A stretch of 64,000 bases of DNA from Marmoricola sp. (GTDB taxonomy: Bacteria; Actinomycetota; Actinomycetes; Propionibacteriales; Nocardioidaceae). Of this stretch, positions 5,285 to 60,708 are shown in pieces. How positions within the stretch are numbered: the first letter of the stretch is position 1; every line of letters begins with the position of its first letter. The notes beneath the pieces are model-generated. The model was not told where the DNA came from. It worked only from the letters and a program-made list of their open reading frames with translations, and made no database searches. The translations under genes were made by a program, and so were the position numbers. The stretch spans positions 1-64,000 of the forward strand of contig JAOPYC010000060.1 in the NCBI GenBank assembly GCA_025964795.1, read 5' to 3'.

Positions 5285-5752
5285 TCAGGAGCCGGCGGCC
5301 AGCTGGGACCGCACCTCCGCGGCGACGACGCCGCCGTCGGCGCGACCCTTCGTCCGCGGGGTCAGGGCGCCCATGACCCGGCCCATGGCCTTCATGCCGT
5401 CGGCGCGGACGCCGAGCTCGTCGATGGTGGCGGAGACCAGGGCGACGACCTCCTCCTCGCTGAGCTGCTCGGGCAGGTAGCCCGCGATCACCTCCGCCTC
5501 GGCCCGTTCCTTGGCCGCCTGCTCGGTGCGCCCGGCACCGTCGAAGGCCTCGGCGGCCTCGCGACGCTTCTTCGACTCGGTGGTGAGCACGCCGAGCACG
5601 TCCTCGTCGCTGAGCTCCCGGGCCTCCTTGCCCGCGACCTCGGCGTTGGTCACCGCGGAGAGCACCATCCGCAGGGTCGAGGAACGCAGGGCGTCGCGCG
5701 CCTTGATCGAGGTGGTGAGGTCGGTCCGCAGGCGGTCCTTGAGATCACTCAT
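5285..5752 (-). CDS. GatB/YqeY domain protein
   Basis: The 155-residue protein begins MSDLKDRLRTDL and ends in the helical YqeY domain (GYLPEQLSEEE, then MKAMGRVMGAL), the same fold as the C-terminal tail of the GatB amidotransferase subunit. Free-standing YqeY proteins are widespread. Their role is not settled; a link to tRNA-dependent amidation is inferred from the fold. An ATG at 5761 (MTRMSDL) is an equally possible start. It converges on ponA2 with 6 nt between the stops and is divergent from the phosphoesterase gene, whose start lies only about 26 nt away. Confidence 0.85.
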   Translation of the reverse strand: MSDLKDRLRTDLTTSIKARDALRSSTLRMVLSAVTNAEVAGKEARELSDEDVLGVLTTESKKRREAAEAFDGAGRTEQAAKERAEAEVIAGYLPEQLSEEEVVALVSATIDELGVRADGMKAMGRVMGALTPRTKGRADGGVVAAEVRSQLAAGS

Positions 5753-5778
5753 GCGGGTCATTGTGGCAGCCTTGCACC

Positions 5779-6753
5779 ATGGCACCCCACTCGGTTTCCG
5801 GAGCCGATTCCCGCTCGGTCCCCCAGCGGGTGCTGCGCACCGTGGGCGCCGGTGTCGGGCTGGGAGCGCTGGCCGGCCTGGGCACGCTGGCCTACTCCGC
5901 GGGATTCGAGGTCCGCAACTTCGTCGTACGCCGGGTCGAGGTGGCAGTGCTGCCGCCGGGCCGACGCCCGCTCAAGGTGCTGCACCTCAGCGACCTGCAC
6001 CTGACCCCCTCCCAGGGTACGAAGCGGCGGTGGCTGGCCTCGCTGGCCGAGCTCGAGCCCGACCTGGTCGTCGACACCGGCGACAACCTGGCCCACATGG
6101 ACGCGGTGGACCCGGTGGTGGAGGGCCTCGGCGCGCTGCTCGACGTGCCGGGCGTGTTCGTCTTCGGGTCCAACGACTACTTCGCACCGACGGTGCGCAA
6201 CCCGGTGTGGTACCTCCTCCCCGACGACGGCAACCGCAACGTGCACACCCCGAAGCTCCCGTGGAAGGACCTGCGCGCCGCCTTCGAGTCACGCGGGTGG
6301 CGGGACCTCACCAACACCTCCGCGCGTCTCGAGGTCGGGGGGACCTCGCTGGCCTTCGTCGGCGTGGACGACCCCCACCTGGAGTACGACGACCTCGCCG
6401 CCGTGGCCGGTCCGGCGCCCACCGACGTGGACCTGCGCATCGGGGTGGCGCACGCGCCGTACCTCCGGGTGCTCGACCAGTACGCCCGCGACGGCTACGA
6501 CCTCACCCTGGCCGGCCACACCCACGGTGGCCAGGTCTGCCTGCCGGTGAAGGGCGCGATCGTGACCAACTGCGACCTCGACACCGGGCGTGCCAAGGGC
6601 CTGCACCGGCACCCGGCCGACTCGCGACCGGGCGACCCGCAGAGCTCGTGGCTGCACGTCTCGGCGGGAGCCGGCACGTCGCCGTACGCCCCGGTCCGGC
6701 TGTGCTGCCGGCCGGAAGCGACCCTGCTGACCCTGCTCCCGTTGCCTTCCTAG
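5779..6753 (+). CDS. membrane-anchored metallophosphoesterase (YkuE-like)
   Basis: The 324-residue protein has the calcineurin-type metal-binding motifs in order: HLSDLHL (about residues 70–76), DTGDN, GSND and GHTHGGQV, spaced as in the YkuE/Cda1 family of two-metal phosphoesterases. A hydrophobic segment near residues 20–45 should anchor it to the membrane with the catalytic domain outside. Relatives are tied to envelope lipid or nucleotide phosphate chemistry, but the substrate cannot be read from sequence. The ATG at 5779 is chosen over an in-frame TTG at 5761. It ends about 60 nt before tRNA-Pro. Confidence 0.85.
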   Translation: MAPHSVSGADSRSVPQRVLRTVGAGVGLGALAGLGTLAYSAGFEVRNFVVRRVEVAVLPPGRRPLKVLHLSDLHLTPSQGTKRRWLASLAELEPDLVVDTGDNLAHMDAVDPVVEGLGALLDVPGVFVFGSNDYFAPTVRNPVWYLLPDDGNRNVHTPKLPWKDLRAAFESRGWRDLTNTSARLEVGGTSLAFVGVDDPHLEYDDLAAVAGPAPTDVDLRIGVAHAPYLRVLDQYARDGYDLTLAGHTHGGQVCLPVKGAIVTNCDLDTGRAKGLHRHPADSRPGDPQSSWLHVSAGAGTSPYAPVRLCCRPEATLLTLLPLPS

Positions 6754-50501: not shown

Positions 50502-51971
50502 TCAGTTGGTGGCGTTCCGGTAGTGCGAGAGCGCCTCGGCGGGGGTGAGGACGTCGGTGTAGACGGCGAGCTCGTCGAGGGTGCCGTCGTAGTAGTTGTC
50601 GGTGGGGTTGCTGGCCCAGCCGGTCATCTGCTCGGCGCCGGCCCGCCAGTAGCCGTTGGCCGAGTAGGACTGCACGGTGGCGGTGGTCGAGCCCTGGAGC
50701 GCGCCGTCGACGTAGAGCTTCATGCCGCTGGCGCCCGCGACGAAGGTGCCGACCACGTGGTGCCAGGTGCCGTTGTTGACCACACCGGTGCTGGCCACGG
50801 TGGTCTTCGCGGAGCCGACGCCGAAGTAGACCTTGCCGTTCGCACCGAGGTAGAGCAGCCGGTCCTGCGTGGTCGCGGTGGTGGAGCCGCTGGCGTTGCC
50901 GAAGCCGATGATGCGGCCACCGGTGGTCGAGGTGCTCTTGACCCAGGCCTCCACGCTGAAGGTGCTCGGCGCCGCGACGGCGGCGTTGGCGGTGATCGAG
51001 GTGACGCTGAAGCCCATCGCCCGGTTCGGCGTCTCGGAGGTGAGCGCGCCCACCTGGTTGAACGCGGTGGTCTGCGCGAGCAGGGTGCCCGGGTGGTTGG
51101 TCCCGCTGGTGTCGGCGGTGGTGGTGCCGCTCGTGTCGTCCAGCTTCCAGTAGAGGTACGGCGAGTCCGCCACGACCTCGGACTGGTAGGGGTGGAAGCT
51201 CACGGCCGCGGCCAGGGTGCTGGTGGGGTTCACGGCGGACTTCTTGAAGGCCGCGTCGGCCGGGGCACCCACGGCGCCGACGGCGATGACGCCCACGGTG
51301 GCGGCCGCGGCGATGCGGCGGCGACGGCTGCCGCGGTCCGGGCGGGGACGCGAGCGGGGCTTCGGCAGGTCGGTGTCGTCGGAGGTGTCGTCGGACTCGT
51401 CGTTCTTCGGCTTGCCGGGGAAGGCGGAGACGACGCACCAGCCGAGCAGCAGGAAGGTGACGCCGAGGGCGGCGAAGTTGCGCTCGGCCATCCAGTACAC
51501 CGCACGCCCCACGAACGGGACCCGGATGACCCCGAGCCCGAGGACGGCGGCGTCGGTGACGTGGGAGGAGTCGGCCGTCGGGTTGGCGTCCCCCTTGGTG
51601 ACGATCGTGCCGTCGGCGGCTCGGCGTACGAACCGGTGCGTGCGGGTCTTCTCCGGGTGGTCCGGGTCCGAGACGGTGATGACGTTGCCCTTGACCAGGG
51701 TCGTGGCCGGCACCGCGCGGGTGACGATGATGTCGCCGACGTGGATCCGCGGCTCCATCGATCCGGACATGATCACGTGCGGCGCCATCCCGACCAGGGC
51801 GGGAAGGAGCGACCACGTCACCAGCGAGGCCACCATCGCGAGGGCGGCCCGGGCGACCGTCCTGCGCAGCAGAGCACGCCAGCCCAGCTCGACCGGAGCG
51901 GTCACGACGACAGCCGGGGCTGCGCTCGTGTCCGGCGCGGTGCGCTGGGCTGGTACGTGGATGGTGCTCAT
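50502..51971 (-). CDS. SipW-type signal peptidase fused to a LamG domain
   Basis: The 489-residue protein has three parts. First, a signal peptidase I of the S26B (SipW/ER) type: TM near 40–60, the catalytic serine S71 in MSGSMEPRIHVGD, the catalytic histidine H112 in RTHRFV, KGDAN near 128 and a second TM near 165–185. Second, a Ser/Asp and Arg/Pro linker leading to a new basic-hydrophobic signal (RRRRIAAAATVGVIAVG, 217–233) and AAFKKSAVNPTS (240–251). Third, a LamG/concanavalin-A-like domain (about 265–489, YLYWKLDDTSG to LDELAVYTDVLT). The middle part copies the export signal of the neighbouring TasA-like protein, suggesting the peptidase releases its own LamG tail. It lies downstream of that gene and is probably co-transcribed. 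Confidence 0.85.
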   Translation of the reverse strand: MSTIHVPAQRTAPDTSAAPAVVVTAPVELGWRALLRRTVARAALAMVASLVTWSLLPALVGMAPHVIMSGSMEPRIHVGDIIVTRAVPATTLVKGNVITVSDPDHPEKTRTHRFVRRAADGTIVTKGDANPTADSSHVTDAAVLGLGVIRVPFVGRAVYWMAERNFAALGVTFLLLGWCVVSAFPGKPKNDESDDTSDDTDLPKPRSRPRPDRGSRRRRIAAAATVGVIAVGAVGAPADAAFKKSAVNPTSTLAAAVSFHPYQSEVVADSPYLYWKLDDTSGTTTADTSGTNHPGTLLAQTTAFNQVGALTSETPNRAMGFSVTSITANAAVAAPSTFSVEAWVKSTSTTGGRIIGFGNASGSTTATTQDRLLYLGANGKVYFGVGSAKTTVASTGVVNNGTWHHVVGTFVAGASGMKLYVDGALQGSTTATVQSYSANGYWRAGAEQMTGWASNPTDNYYDGTLDELAVYTDVLTPAEALSHYRNATN

Positions 51972-52026
51972 GCGGATCTGGGTCTCTCCGAAGTGGTGGT
52001 GCGAGCTGGCCGGTGCCGATCAGGGA

Positions 52027-52617
52027 TCAGCTGTTCTGCGACTCCCAGGTGAAGCCGAGGGCCGCGGTGCCGCCCTGCGCGGAGTCAGGCGTGTTGGCGT
52101 TCACGGTGTAGGTGACGCGGAAGGACTTGACCTCGGACGCAGTGCCGGTCGGGGCCCAGGTGCCGACGCCGGTGGCGAAGGAGGTCTTGCTGGTGCCGAA
52201 GGAGCTCAGCGTGCTGTCGAAGATCGTCGAGGCGCCGGTGAAGCCCGCGCAGCTCGCGGTGGTGGCGCCGGTGCCCTGCTCGACCTTGAGCGCGATGTTG
52301 TCGGCGAGGCCGTTGGTGGTGGCGTAGGAGGTGCCGTAGAGCTTGACCGACGAGGCCAGCGAGCCGGTGGAGGTGACGGCGATGCACTTGACGCCGGTGG
52401 AGCCGGGCTTGAGGTTGGCGCCCGTGAACATCGCGGTGTTGCTGTCGTCGTCGCTCAGGGCGACGGTGCCCGAGGCCCAGTTGCTGGTCGGGTTGGCGGT
52501 GGTCGCGGAGAACGCGGAGTACGACGAGGCCCACACCATGCCGCCGCTGGCCAGGACGGCGGCCGGGATGGCGGCACCGGCGATGAGCTGCTTGCGGGAG
52601 ATGTTGAACAGTGACAT
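52027..52617 (-). CDS. SipW-dependent secreted protein (TasA/camelysin-like)
   Basis: The 196-residue protein has the SipW-type signal: MSLFNISRKQLIAGAAIPAAVLASGG, then AFSATTANPTSNWASG (35–50). The mature part is beta-rich with Ser/Thr-Gly stretches and two cysteines (CIAV, ASCAG), as in TasA/camelysin-type fibre subunits. In Bacillus these form matrix fibres processed by SipW; here the processing enzyme is the fusion protein encoded next door. Its exact function is unknown. AAGGA lies 7 nt before the ATG at 52617. Confidence 0.75.
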   Translation of the reverse strand: MSLFNISRKQLIAGAAIPAAVLASGGMVWASSYSAFSATTANPTSNWASGTVALSDDDSNTAMFTGANLKPGSTGVKCIAVTSTGSLASSVKLYGTSYATTNGLADNIALKVEQGTGATTASCAGFTGASTIFDSTLSSFGTSKTSFATGVGTWAPTGTASEVKSFRVTYTVNANTPDSAQGGTAALGFTWESQNS

Positions 52618-54962: not shown

Positions 54963-57575
54963 ATGGTCAAGAAGTCGCGCGTGGCAGCCGCACTGGTCTG
55001 CCTGGTCCTCGGGCTCGCGCTGCTCGGATCAGCCGCGTTCGCCGCGGACACGAAAGTGACGGTCGCCGACTCCGCGGACACCTACACCCAGTCGAACACC
55101 GCGAGCACCGACTACGGCACCAGCACCTCGCTCGGCGTCTACGGCACCCCGTCCGCCACCGCGGTGATCCGCTTCGTGCTGCCGGCCGCGCCGGCGGGCA
55201 AGTCCCTCACCGCAGCGACCCTGCGCGTGCGCACCACCACCCTCGGCTCCGCCGGGTCGGTGAACGCCGCCAACGTCCGGGTCGCGACCGACACCTGGAC
55301 CGAGACCGGCACCACCTACGCGAAGCGGCCGACGCCCAGCGGTGCCGTCCTCGGCTCCCTCCCGGGGGGCTCGGTCCCGGACAAGGCCTACTCCATCGCG
55401 CTCAGCACCGCCGCGCTCGCCGGCCTCACCGGGTCCACGACGCTGGCCATCGAGGGCACCGGCACCGACAGCCTGTTCCTCTCGTCGCGCCAGGTCTCCA
55501 CCGTGGCCAACCGACCGGCGCTCGACCTGACCTACACCGACACCGCCCCCGGCGACACCACACCGCCGAGCACGCCGGGCGACCCGGCCGCCACCGTCAA
55601 CGGGATCTCGGTGTCCCTGGCGTGGACGGCGTCGAGCGACGCCGTGGGCGTCACCGGCTACACCGTGCACCGTTCCACCACGACCGGCTTCACCCCCAGC
55701 GCGGCCACCGTCATCGGCACGGTGGGCACTCCCGGTTTCACCGACCAGGGCCGGCCCGCGGGCACGTGGTACTACCGGGTCGTCGCCACCGACGCGGCCA
55801 GCAACGCCAGTGACCCCTCCGCGACGGCCACAGCCGTCGTCGGGGGTGGGCCCCCCACGCAGACCACCGTCTCGCTGCTCCCGCAGGCCGACACCTACAC
55901 CCAGTCGAACACCCCGAGCACCGACTACGGCACCAGCACCTCGCTCGGTGTCTACGGCACCCCGGTGGTCACCTCGGTCGTGCGGTTCGTGCTGCCGTCG
56001 GCGCCGTCCGGCACGACGCTCACCGGGGCTGCCCTGCGGGTGCGCACCACGGCCATCACCTCCGCGGGGTCGGCGAACCCCGCCACCGTGCGGATCGCCA
56101 CCGACACCTGGACCGAGACCGGCACCACCTACGCCAACCGGCCGACGGCGAGCGGCGGCGTGCTCGGCACCCTGCCCGGCGGAACGACCCCGGACAAGGC
56201 CTACTCGATCCCGCTGAGTGCCTCCGCGCTGGCCGGGCTCACCGGGTCGACGACGCTGGCCCTCGAGGGCAGCGGCAGCGACAGCCTCTTCCTGTGGTCC
56301 CGCCAGACGGCCACCGCGACGAACCGGCCCGCGCTCGACCTGACCTACACGGCAGCGGCGACTCCCCCGGACAGCTCACCGCCCACGGCGCCGACCGACC
56401 TCGCGGCCACCGTCTCCGGGTCGGCGGTCACGCTCACCTGGACCGCGGCCGAGGACGACCAGGGCGTCACCGGATACGTGGTCCACCGCTCGGCGGACGC
56501 GGACTTCACGCCGTCGCCGGCGACCGCCGTCGGCGCCACGAGCGGGACGACGACGACGGACGCCGCGCGCCCGCCGGGAACGTGGTACTTCCGGGTGGTC
56601 GCCCAGGACGCCGCGGGCAACGCCGGTCCTCCGTCGGCGGCTGCGACGGCCACGGTCGTCGACGACCTGCCCCCCACCATGACGGTCGCGGCGGCCGGGG
56701 ACATCGTCTGCCCGCCGGGAGATCCGGTCACGCCCACGACCTGCAAGCACGTGGAGGTGCGCGCGCTGATCGACTCCCTGGCCCCGGACCGGTTCATCGC
56801 CGTCGGTGACCTCGCGCAGGGCAACGGCTCCTACGACGAGTTCGTGGCCCCCGGGCGCTTCGCCGACACCTTCGGCAGCCTCGGGTCGAAGATCCTCCCG
56901 GTGATGGGCAACCACGAGGGCTTCACCCCCCAGGCGGCCGGCTACTGGGACTACTTCTACGGGCCGGGGGTGACCACCGGTCCCTTCGGCGACCGTCCGA
57001 CCGGCTACTACACGACCATGATCGGCAGCTGGCGGTTCATCGGGCTGAACAGCGAGTGCGACCCCGGCGGCCTGTCCGGCGGCTGCGACGTGACCAGCCC
57101 GCAGTACCAGTGGCTCAAGTCGCTGCTCGAGCAGGACACCACCGCGTGCACCGTGGTGGCCTACCACCGGCCGCGATGGACGACGGGTTCCGGCCATCCG
57201 CCGTACGTCGAGATGGCGCCGCTGTGGGACCTGCTGGCCCAGCACCATGCCGACATCGTGCTGTCGGGCCACAACCACGTCGCGGAGGCGTTCAAGCCGA
57301 TCGGCGTCTCCGGCACCGCCGCCCAGCCCACCCTGTCACCGCAGGGCATCCGGTCCTTCACCGTCGGCATCGGCGGGGACAGCCAGTACACCTTCAGCGG
57401 GGTGGGCGCCGGCCAGTTCAGCGCCCTGGAGTCGCGGGCCAAGGGAACCTTCGGGGTCCTGAAGCTCAGCCTGAAGCCGGGCGGCTACGACTGGGGGTTC
57501 CTGCCGATCGCGGGGTCGACCTTCACCAACTCGGGCACGATCGGATCGTTCTCCGGAACCGACAGCTGCCACTAG
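54963..57575 (+). CDS. large secreted protein: two DNRLRE–FN3 units plus metallophosphoesterase
   Basis: The 870-residue protein has a signal peptide (VCLVLGLALLGSAAFAA). Two 271-residue units follow, each a DNRLRE beta domain (ADTYTQSNT.STDYGTSTSLGVYGTP) and an FN3 domain (PSTPGDPAATVNGISVSLAWTAS). A C-terminal calcineurin-type phosphoesterase (about 565–870) has AAGDIVC, VGDLAQGNG, GNHEG, and SGHNHV. DNRLRE domains are parts of secreted, often fibre-like, actinobacterial proteins. The two units are recent duplicates, since 75 of 78 bases match at their starts (55074 and 55887). Substrate unknown. Confidence 0.85.
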   Translation: MVKKSRVAAALVCLVLGLALLGSAAFAADTKVTVADSADTYTQSNTASTDYGTSTSLGVYGTPSATAVIRFVLPAAPAGKSLTAATLRVRTTTLGSAGSVNAANVRVATDTWTETGTTYAKRPTPSGAVLGSLPGGSVPDKAYSIALSTAALAGLTGSTTLAIEGTGTDSLFLSSRQVSTVANRPALDLTYTDTAPGDTTPPSTPGDPAATVNGISVSLAWTASSDAVGVTGYTVHRSTTTGFTPSAATVIGTVGTPGFTDQGRPAGTWYYRVVATDAASNASDPSATATAVVGGGPPTQTTVSLLPQADTYTQSNTPSTDYGTSTSLGVYGTPVVTSVVRFVLPSAPSGTTLTGAALRVRTTAITSAGSANPATVRIATDTWTETGTTYANRPTASGGVLGTLPGGTTPDKAYSIPLSASALAGLTGSTTLALEGSGSDSLFLWSRQTATATNRPALDLTYTAAATPPDSSPPTAPTDLAATVSGSAVTLTWTAAEDDQGVTGYVVHRSADADFTPSPATAVGATSGTTTTDAARPPGTWYFRVVAQDAAGNAGPPSAAATATVVDDLPPTMTVAAAGDIVCPPGDPVTPTTCKHVEVRALIDSLAPDRFIAVGDLAQGNGSYDEFVAPGRFADTFGSLGSKILPVMGNHEGFTPQAAGYWDYFYGPGVTTGPFGDRPTGYYTTMIGSWRFIGLNSECDPGGLSGGCDVTSPQYQWLKSLLEQDTTACTVVAYHRPRWTTGSGHPPYVEMAPLWDLLAQHHADIVLSGHNHVAEAFKPIGVSGTAAQPTLSPQGIRSFTVGIGGDSQYTFSGVGAGQFSALESRAKGTFGVLKLSLKPGGYDWGFLPIAGSTFTNSGTIGSFSGTDSCH
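55074..55151 (+). repeat. duplicated DNRLRE-encoding segment, copy 1
   Basis: It matches 55887–55964 at 75 of 78 bases; the copies are 813 bp (271 codons) apart, the length of the protein repeat unit. Confidence 0.7.
55887..55964 (+). repeat. duplicated DNRLRE-encoding segment, copy 2
   Basis: The second copy of the segment at 55074. Downstream sequences of the two units diverge more, so the conserved start may be under selection or gene conversion. Confidence 0.7.
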
Positions 57576-58569: not shown

Positions 58570-60708
58570 TCAGCCGTAGGTGAGCACGAGCGCGGGCTGG
58601 TAGTCCGGGCCGAGACGGCTCCGGGACCAGAACCACAGGCTGTTCGTCCCGCTGCCCACGACCGCCAGCGTCGCGTTCGACCCGGCGCGCGAGGCCAGGC
58701 CGGCCGGGTCCAGCGTCGTCCGGACCACGGAGCCCGGCGCGGTGTTCGCCGCGACCGTGCCGAGGGTGGTCGTCGTGACCGCCGGACGGTTGTTCCAGGT
58801 GACCCCGGTCTCCGACCACGAGTCACTGGCGAGCCTGACCGGGTGCTGCTCGGTCGAGCCGGCCGTGCCCACGTCGGCCGTGTGGAACCGCAGGACCGCC
58901 GACTTGAGCGTCTTGCCGCTGGGCGGCTGGGGAACGGCGAAGCGCAGGTAGGACACCGCGCCGACGTCCCCCCGGGCCTCCAGCGTCGAGGTCGTCCCGT
59001 AGTTCTTCGCCGGAGCTCCCTCGTTGGCGTAGGAGTCCGCGGTCGGGGCGAGCGAGACCGTCGACGTCGCCGGGGTGGCGGCGGGAGCGGGAGCGGGCTC
59101 GGAGACCGCCGGGGCGGCCGCGTTGGAGCTGGTGCCCTCGCGTCGGCTGCTGGCGGCCACGTAGGCCAGGTTCTGGACGTACGGCGTGGCGACCACCTTG
59201 TTCGGCGAGGTCACCGAGGCGACCGCGGTCGAACCGCGGTTGACCGCGACGCTGACCGTTCCCGTGCGCAGCGGCGCGATGCAGGACGACACTCCCGCCG
59301 GGGCGTTGCACGTGGTCACGACGCCGCCGACGTTGACCTTCACCGTCGCCGGTGCCGTGAGGAACGACAGGGCCTCCACGGTGTTGCGTGCGGGGCTTCC
59401 CCCACGCCAGGACATCAGCTTGGTCTGGGCGTAGCTGGGCTTGGCCGAGTAGGTCTGGGTGCGGTGCGTCAGGTAGACCGTGTCCCGGACGATCTTCGGC
59501 GCCGTACCGGTCTTGAACCAGTCCAGGTAGTAGGCGTTGATGTCCAGGAGGGACCAGCCGTGCTTGACCGAGGGCGCGATCTCCGCGTTCTCGGTGTAGT
59601 CGTTCCACGTCGGGATCTGAACCCAGTCCGAGGCCGAGCTGCGGGCGATCTGCCAGGTGTTCCGGAGGTTCGTGGTGTTCTCGGCCTCGTCGTAGATCCC
59701 GGTGTTGGGGCGCGAGTCCTGTACCGAGACCGGCTGCATCCACTTCATCCCCATGGCCCGGACCGCCTTGGCGCGGCTGATCGGAGAGGTGGGGTACGTG
59801 CCCGTGGGATCGTTCCACTTCGGGTTGCGCGAGCCCCAGTTGCCCATCCCGTAGGAGATCGACTTGAACTTGGGCGCCCAGGTCTGCTCGGTCGCCACGA
59901 AGACCGGGACGAACGCGACCTTCATGTTGTGGGCGCTCTGCATCGTGTTCATGAAGCTCGTCCAGAACGCGGGGGTCTTCGCCTCGGCCTTGAACGAGGA
60001 GACGACGAGGCGACCGTCGGGCAGGTGGAACGCCGACTTCGAGGCACCGAGCTCGGCGATGAAGCTGGCGAGCTGGGCCGCACTCTTGTTGACGAGGCTT
60101 CCGCTCATGTCGATCTCCGGCATGATCTTGAAGCCGGGATCGACGCTGGCGGCGGCCTTCATCATGGTGCGCAGCGTGGTCACCTGGCGGTAGTCCGGGT
60201 CGCCGGGCAGCTGCATGATGTTCAGCGTGAAGCCGTCGATGCCGGCGGCGATCGCCTGACGCACCTCCGTCTGCAGGTCGGCGAGGCGCCACTGCGTCTC
60301 CGTGGCGCCGTTCATCGCCGCCCGGGGTATCGGGCGGTCGCGCAGCAGGCCGCCGTACGCCTTGTGCTTGCCCTTCTCACCCGTGGGGGTGAGGTAGTTG
60401 CGCGCGTAGTAGTCGGTGCTCGGGTTCTCGTTGTCCAGGGAGACGACCATCGGCGGCCAGTAGTGCGCGAACACCAGCTTCCCGGTCGAGCGCAGGGCGC
60501 TCGTGGACGGCAGGTCGAAGGGCAGCGCCGGGGTAGCGGAGGCCACGGTGGCGGTCTCGGCGTCGGTCACGCTCGCGGACCGGTGGGACTGGATCGCCAT
60601 CGGCACGGTCAACGCGAGACCCAGGACCAGGACCAGCATGCGAGCCCTGAACCAGGGTGACCGGATCAGCGGGCGGGGTTTCGGGGCGTGGGGGATTGCA
60701 GGGGGCAT
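58570..60708 (-). CDS. GH71 alpha-1,3-glucanase-like protein with DNRLRE tail
   Basis: The 712-residue protein has an N-terminal membrane anchor or signal (MLVLVLGLALTVPMAI, 24–39). A glycoside hydrolase family 71 (mutanase type) domain follows, with LVFAHYWPPMV, AAGIDGFTLNIMQ, KIMPEIDMSG and WVQIPTWNDYTENAEI in the order expected for GH71. A proline-alanine linker (about 530–560) leads to a C-terminal DNRLRE domain (from TADSYANEGAPAKNYG). GH71 enzymes cut alpha-1,3-glucan; its own or fungal glucan could be the target. GAAGG lies 7 nt before the ATG. A c-di-AMP-type riboswitch precedes it on the same strand. Confidence 0.8.
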   Translation of the reverse strand: MPPAIPHAPKPRPLIRSPWFRARMLVLVLGLALTVPMAIQSHRSASVTDAETATVASATPALPFDLPSTSALRSTGKLVFAHYWPPMVVSLDNENPSTDYYARNYLTPTGEKGKHKAYGGLLRDRPIPRAAMNGATETQWRLADLQTEVRQAIAAGIDGFTLNIMQLPGDPDYRQVTTLRTMMKAAASVDPGFKIMPEIDMSGSLVNKSAAQLASFIAELGASKSAFHLPDGRLVVSSFKAEAKTPAFWTSFMNTMQSAHNMKVAFVPVFVATEQTWAPKFKSISYGMGNWGSRNPKWNDPTGTYPTSPISRAKAVRAMGMKWMQPVSVQDSRPNTGIYDEAENTTNLRNTWQIARSSASDWVQIPTWNDYTENAEIAPSVKHGWSLLDINAYYLDWFKTGTAPKIVRDTVYLTHRTQTYSAKPSYAQTKLMSWRGGSPARNTVEALSFLTAPATVKVNVGGVVTTCNAPAGVSSCIAPLRTGTVSVAVNRGSTAVASVTSPNKVVATPYVQNLAYVAASSRREGTSSNAAAPAVSEPAPAPAATPATSTVSLAPTADSYANEGAPAKNYGTTSTLEARGDVGAVSYLRFAVPQPPSGKTLKSAVLRFHTADVGTAGSTEQHPVRLASDSWSETGVTWNNRPAVTTTTLGTVAANTAPGSVVRTTLDPAGLASRAGSNATLAVVGSGTNSLWFWSRSRLGPDYQPALVLTYG

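Follow-up and report, generated by a model that had tools for sequence, protein, structure and literature searches.

The usual view of signal peptidases is that they are housekeeping enzymes distinct from their cargo. An aromatic residue at P2' is the hallmark of the SipW/TasA pair. SipW has been described as the dedicated enzyme for TasA, which is a poor substrate of Escherichia coli LepB owing to its aromatic P2' and neighbouring residues (PMC10269814). In Bacillus subtilis, the tapA stop overlaps the sipW start, and a strain secreting only residues 44-57 of TapA still forms biofilm (PMC10151520). In B. subtilis TasA, residues 28-38 form the donor strand, and F29, I32 and F39 make contact with the following subunits; the first donor strand may come from TapA (PMC9674648). 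In Bacillus cereus, CapP nucleates or stabilises camelysin filaments (PMC13082335).

The window analysed here, a stretch of 64,000 nucleotides of Marmoricola sp. DNA, contains a gene for an S26B signal peptidase fused to a LamG domain and, 55 nt upstream on the same strand, a gene for a TasA-like protein. We consider it fairly likely that this peptidase carries a second secreted protein as C-terminal cargo, cuts it off after A240 and also processes the TasA-like protein; less certainly, the LamG part may serve as a fibre end-piece. The features are as follows.

52027..52617, minus strand: TasA/camelysin-like protein, presumed substrate (196 aa; weak PF12389 and NF046066 matches; homologues upstream of 40/40 fusions)
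52516..52617, minus strand: putative signal peptide, residues 1-34 of the TasA-like protein (cut predicted ahead of A35-F36, from the register with homologues and with the junction)
50502..51971, minus strand: S26B signal peptidase-signal-LamG fusion (489 aa plus stop; open reading frame and profile matches)
51480..51842, minus strand: S26B domain, ER-type, SEC11/SipW-like, residues 44-164 (TIGR02228; SEC11C/SEC11A alignment)
51759-51761, 51636-51638 and 51570-51572, minus strand: catalytic codons Ser71, His112 and Asp134 of the fusion (invariant in 40/40)
51414..51470, minus strand: second membrane segment of the peptidase, about residues 168-186 (by hydrophobicity; approximate boundaries)
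51315..51413, minus strand: hydrophilic linker, residues 187-219, with RRRR at its end (presumed cytosolic)
51252..51314, minus strand: third hydrophobic segment, a putative internal SipW-type signal, residues 220-240 (predicted cut between A240 and A241)
51204..51251, minus strand: donor-strand-like passenger N-terminus, residues 241-256, AFKKSAVNPTSTLAAA (same position as the mature N-terminus of the TasA-like protein; putative function by analogy with PMC9674648 and PMC10151520)
50505..51188, minus strand: LamG (concanavalin-A-like) passenger, residues 262-489 (PF13385, 4.1e-24; Pfam core 326-479)

The S26B domain scored 65.3 bits against TIGR02228 (curated cut-off 51.85, residues 44-164), and the LamG domain scored 85.9 bits against Laminin_G_3 (gathering cut-off 27.6, residues 326-479). 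The surroundings of the locus encode a CBM96-FN3-metallophosphoesterase protein (54963-57575, plus strand) and a GH71 plus CBM96 protein (58570-60708, minus strand); a link to alpha-glucan is possible.

The preliminary description of this DNA had placed Ser71, His112, F242 and an NPTS motif (N248-S251) in the fusion protein, and F36 with a second NPTS motif (N42-S45) in the upstream protein; all of these residues lie where it put them. It had also held that the junction resembles the N-terminus of the TasA-like neighbour. The register it claimed is indeed the best ungapped 20-mer match between the two, GAVGAPADAAFKKSAVNPTS against GMVWASSYSAFSATTANPTS, with a score of 41. None of 300 shuffles reached this score (highest 38), and the best match of the TasA-like N-terminus elsewhere in the fusion protein scored 35. 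The AF-x5-NPTS motif itself holds for the window protein and its neighbour but not as a general motif, the literal string being local to close relatives. The family pattern at the junction is approximately A-x-A/[AGT]-[FYWL]-[TSK]-x-x-T-x-N-x-x-x-x-W-[TA]-[AV]-G, where the slash marks the cut. The window site reads ADA/AF and combines a basic stretch, a hydrophobic stretch, an A-x-A cut and an aromatic P2', as expected of a SipW-type signal. It has Leu at P13' and is among the weakest junctions by the family matrix. With a matrix built from the substrates of other loci it was not the top site of the window protein; the highest-scoring position (1.8 bits) lay where the second membrane segment ends. 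The profile made from substrate signals missed the window site as well. Support for the window junction therefore comes from its register with its own neighbour and with its nearest relatives, and it is a divergent copy of the family signal.

Searches from genus to phylum found at least 53 S26B-LamG fusions, distributed over four family codes of actinobacteria. In the genus (24 genomes), four further fusions were found in three genomes (L009, L010, L026 and L011); one of the three is Marmoricola sp. Leaf446, the sole relative returned by the related-loci scan. The family-wide search covered 341 genomes, 171 of which had some match at E<=1e-10, and 60 regions were taken. Together, the genus loci and family regions gave at least 40 distinct open reading frames with both domains from 38 genomes, which form the close set (32 clusters at 70% identity). 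A single fusion, used as query across the order (391 genomes) and the phylum (396 genomes), added 20 regions. Thirteen of these hold fusions. Under family code f2, eight have the main enzyme type and three a second type; the other two, from codes f32 and f24, lie outside the class. Single-contig genomes carrying a fusion include G258, G143, G135 and G208. The preliminary description reported a single oddity; the architecture in fact recurs, with several types of passenger and with counterparts in which the two parts are separate genes. The junction signal it had pointed to recurs as well: a hydrophobic segment and an A-x-A type site are present in 40/40 close fusions, and among these 40 we found no homologue that lacks the signal.

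The net charge of the 12 residues before the hydrophobic segment is positive in 36/40 fusions. P1 and P3 are small in every junction of the close set, and P2' is aromatic in 38/40, the exceptions being Leu in L038 and L044; by eye, Leu also occupies P2' in the fusions L136 and L137. P13' is aromatic in 34/40 junctions, compared with 7.1% aromatic residues overall, and the substrates in the fusion loci have W or F at P13' in 41/42 cases. The junction windows were picked by their top matrix score, or manually for L008 (the window), L063, L078 and L090. These residue counts therefore lean towards the motif, and comparison with shuffled sequences is the fairer test. We scored the interdomain stretches against shuffles with the matrix from other loci's substrates. 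Thirty-eight of 40 stretches gave p<0.01 and 36/40 did so in the expected register; the window and L090 passed with their best site in another register, and L063 and L078 failed to reach p<0.01. Scores of 12 bits or more were found in 29/40 junctions vs 0/5820 other six-frame open reading frames (TasA-like and S26 sets excluded). For the family as a whole, this matrix test ruled out the idea that the junction is an ordinary hydrophobic segment. The substrate-signal profile found 18/40 junctions, all between the two domains, and missed 22, the window included. The spacing between the site and the LamG domain hardly varies (median 22, range 19-32 aa), while the linker between the second and third membrane segments varies from 12 to 82 residues, which indicates that the signal belongs to the passenger. 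At the sequence level, the fusion, its junction signal and the kinship of that signal to the neighbour's export signal are strongly supported.

The LamG part also occurs as a free-standing protein. In L093, L095, L096 and L097, the S26B gene is followed by a separate LamG gene, and the S26B stop overlaps the LamG start by 4 nt in all four loci (starts chosen by eye). The four LamG proteins have SipW-type N-termini by eye; the signal profile finds two of them (L093 and L096), and 0/4 reach 12 bits with the fusion-locus matrix. In L136-L138 a related pair is fused. The enzymes of all these loci (L093, L095-L097 and L136-L138) form an S26B subtype of their own, in which an additional domain lies between two further membrane segments. 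We considered and rejected the LamG part as a TafC fimbrial protein: five of the six fusions scanned one by one match NF052521 over their LamG region, but at 13.4-21.1 bits where the cut-off is 410. In the close set, 12/40 fusions match this model at E<=0.01 (best E 5.4e-7).

Other S26B proteins carry other passengers behind a similar site. With 300 shuffles per protein, the junction site gave p<0.01 in 7/7 proteins with Ig-like repeats (Big_7 in the two scanned), in 13/16 with FN3-like tails (named by eye; no Pfam passenger match in the two scanned) and in 6/6 with RCC1 (one), Gly-rich (one) or unnamed (four) tails. In a tree of 119 S26 domains, which has few columns and long branches, the LamG label changes eight times, at least four of these being forced by well-supported branches, and Ig-bearing enzymes nest among LamG-bearing ones. 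A single LamG clade was rejected by the AU test (p = 6.7e-5; 8.2e-8 without L078; 6.0e-6 without L136-L138). These results indicate that passengers were repeatedly gained, lost or swapped, among which the AU test makes no choice.

We then weighed whether the third hydrophobic segment is a signal at all in the functional sense. It might be a permanent, uncut signal-anchor, in which case the LamG domain would remain tethered and act as a lectin on the cell surface, keeping wall polysaccharide or the TasA-like substrate close to the enzyme. Two S26-DUF proteins of the window genome (L139, G000:C199, and L140, G000:C11), a small natural control with a SipW-type site in 0/2, lend this some weight, as they have extracytoplasmic-looking tails without such a site. 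However, A-x-A, the aromatic P2' and positions to P16' are kept in most of the 40 junctions while linker length is unconstrained, and a like signal precedes unrelated passengers and free-standing LamG genes. This is more than a mere anchor needs, and we regard a permanent anchor as unlikely.

If the tail is cut, the fusion enzyme itself is a plausible agent. Ser71, His112 and Asp134 are invariant in 40/40 fusions, and the SGSM, HR and GD-N-D motifs align to the SEC11C (E = 2.4e-15) and SEC11A (5.4e-14) chains; the active site is Ser-His-Asp as in SEC11, not Ser-Lys. The enzyme thus looks active and of the ER type. All 40 close fusions match TIGR02228 at E<=0.01, some below the curated cut-off (e.g. 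L070, 49.6). Against the Bacillus SipW equivalog NF046067, the fusion scores 46.8 bits where at least 190 is needed. The fusion enzyme probably works like SipW, though it lies outside the Bacillus equivalog.

Another signal peptidase could cut the tail in trans, the fusion then being only a device for co-expression. A census with TIGR02228 at E<=1e-4 in 20 fusion genomes offers candidates, since 14 of them hold further matches, among them the window genome with three more. On the other hand, the fusion is the sole match in the remaining 6/20 (G144, G196, G202, G203, G208 and G253), and the additional enzymes of the window genome are the two S26-DUF proteins and L056, a 260-aa protein that branches with the FN3-like group. 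The P-type enzyme LepB handles an aromatic P2' poorly, which is documented for E. coli only (PMC10269814); if this aversion is valid here, then in the genomes where it is the sole match the fusion enzyme would have to cut its tail itself, either in cis or one copy acting on another. Cutting in trans seems to us less likely still than a permanent anchor, and the best inference is that, as the preliminary description had suggested, the enzyme itself likely releases the LamG tail. That the fusion is a functionless by-product of gene read-through or assembly error is hardly credible, for although the 4-nt overlap in the split counterparts makes fusion an easy accident and the window genome is a 204-contig draft, there are at least 53 fusions, the 40 of the close set fall into 32 clusters and have a conserved junction and triad, and the copies in single-contig genomes rule out an assembly error or missed stop. 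Read-through of peptidase and passenger genes overlapping by four bases is nevertheless the probable origin of the architecture.

The presumed substrate accompanies the enzyme closely, with a TasA-like gene directly upstream on the same strand in 40/40 close fusions. The window protein itself is below the cut-offs of the relevant models (PF12389, 21.1 of 22.5 bits; TasA NF046066, 17.8 of 450). Homologues from 41 of 51 stretches were aligned; of these 41, 17 match PF12389 at E<=0.01, and at E<=0.1 nine match NF046066 and four match the SipW-dependent signal model TIGR04088. A PDB profile search returned TasA (8aur, E = 0.023; 5of1, 0.027), with an unrelated antibody chain ranking higher (0.0072). 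These profiles suggest a weak kinship to TasA/camelysin. In L080, L119 and L129, the fusion is flanked on both sides by TasA-like genes, which suggests at least two fibre subunits per operon. One genome has four tandem TasA-like genes (L115, 1904-5319, plus strand) followed by an S26B gene (5323-6351). Operons L142, L144 and L145 hold a TasA-like gene, a tail-less S26B gene, a second TasA-like gene and an S26B gene with an FN3-like passenger; the two enzymes of such operons may serve separate substrates.

Under the preferred reading of the fusion as an enzyme with its own cargo, the N-terminus would be inside, the catalytic domain outside, and a hairpin would lead back so that the third segment crosses outwards again. 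The cut site would then emerge on the face of the active site. Cutting after A240 by the S26B active site of the same molecule or of a sister copy would leave a membrane peptidase and free a LamG protein with a TasA-type N-terminus, and the same enzyme would process the TasA-like protein encoded upstream. Less certainly, the freed LamG protein might, like TapA in B. subtilis, use its TasA-like N-terminal strand to begin, anchor or tip the fibre formed by the TasA-like protein; enzyme, fibre subunit and end-piece would be made together. The conserved first 16 residues of the passenger reach past the cut site and resemble the N-terminus of the TasA-like neighbour, although the spacing of the aromatic pair, 11 in this family, differs from the 10 of TasA. 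The likeness of the N-termini, together with what is described for TasA, TapA and CapP, leads us to favour, tentatively, a TapA-like fibre starter or end-piece as the role of the passenger.

A wider proposal is more tentative again. Actinobacteria may have repeatedly built self-cargo peptidases, in which cutting the passenger off, once per enzyme molecule, exposes a donor strand for starting or capping a TasA-type fibre, with swappable adhesion ends. If so, release of the passenger and birth of a fibre end would be one event, and fibre ends would be LamG, Ig-like, FN3-like, RCC1 or Gly-rich. The recurrent enzyme-signal-passenger arrangement would then represent a rare case of an export protease that cuts itself. 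Enzyme and fibre end-piece would be made in a fixed ratio, and the passengers would indicate which extracellular domains actinobacteria place at the ends of their TasA-like fibres. In genomes where no S26B enzyme besides the fusion was detected, one point mutation would put the idea directly to the test. Among the titles and starts of abstracts listed by open-literature searches, we found none on the fusion of a signal peptidase with a passenger of SipW type.

The nearest parallel within the window genome is provided by the S26-DUF proteins, which likewise join an S26B domain to a further membrane segment and a long tail. They differ in the missing SipW-type tail site, and a TasA-like neighbour was not found within 10-11 kb. 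CapP of the B. cereus CapP/CalY/TasA system is, like the passenger proposed here, a SipW-processed accessory protein, but it is encoded by a separate gene and transcribed separately (PMC13082335). The tapA-sipW-tasA operon of Bacillus shares with this locus an S26B enzyme beside a TasA-like gene, a substrate with an aromatic P2' and, coupled to the enzyme, a minor second substrate of SipW. Here, however, the gene order is tasA-like and then enzyme-passenger, and the presumed second substrate belongs to the same polypeptide chain as the enzyme, as a LamG, Ig-like, FN3-like, RCC1 or Gly-rich protein.
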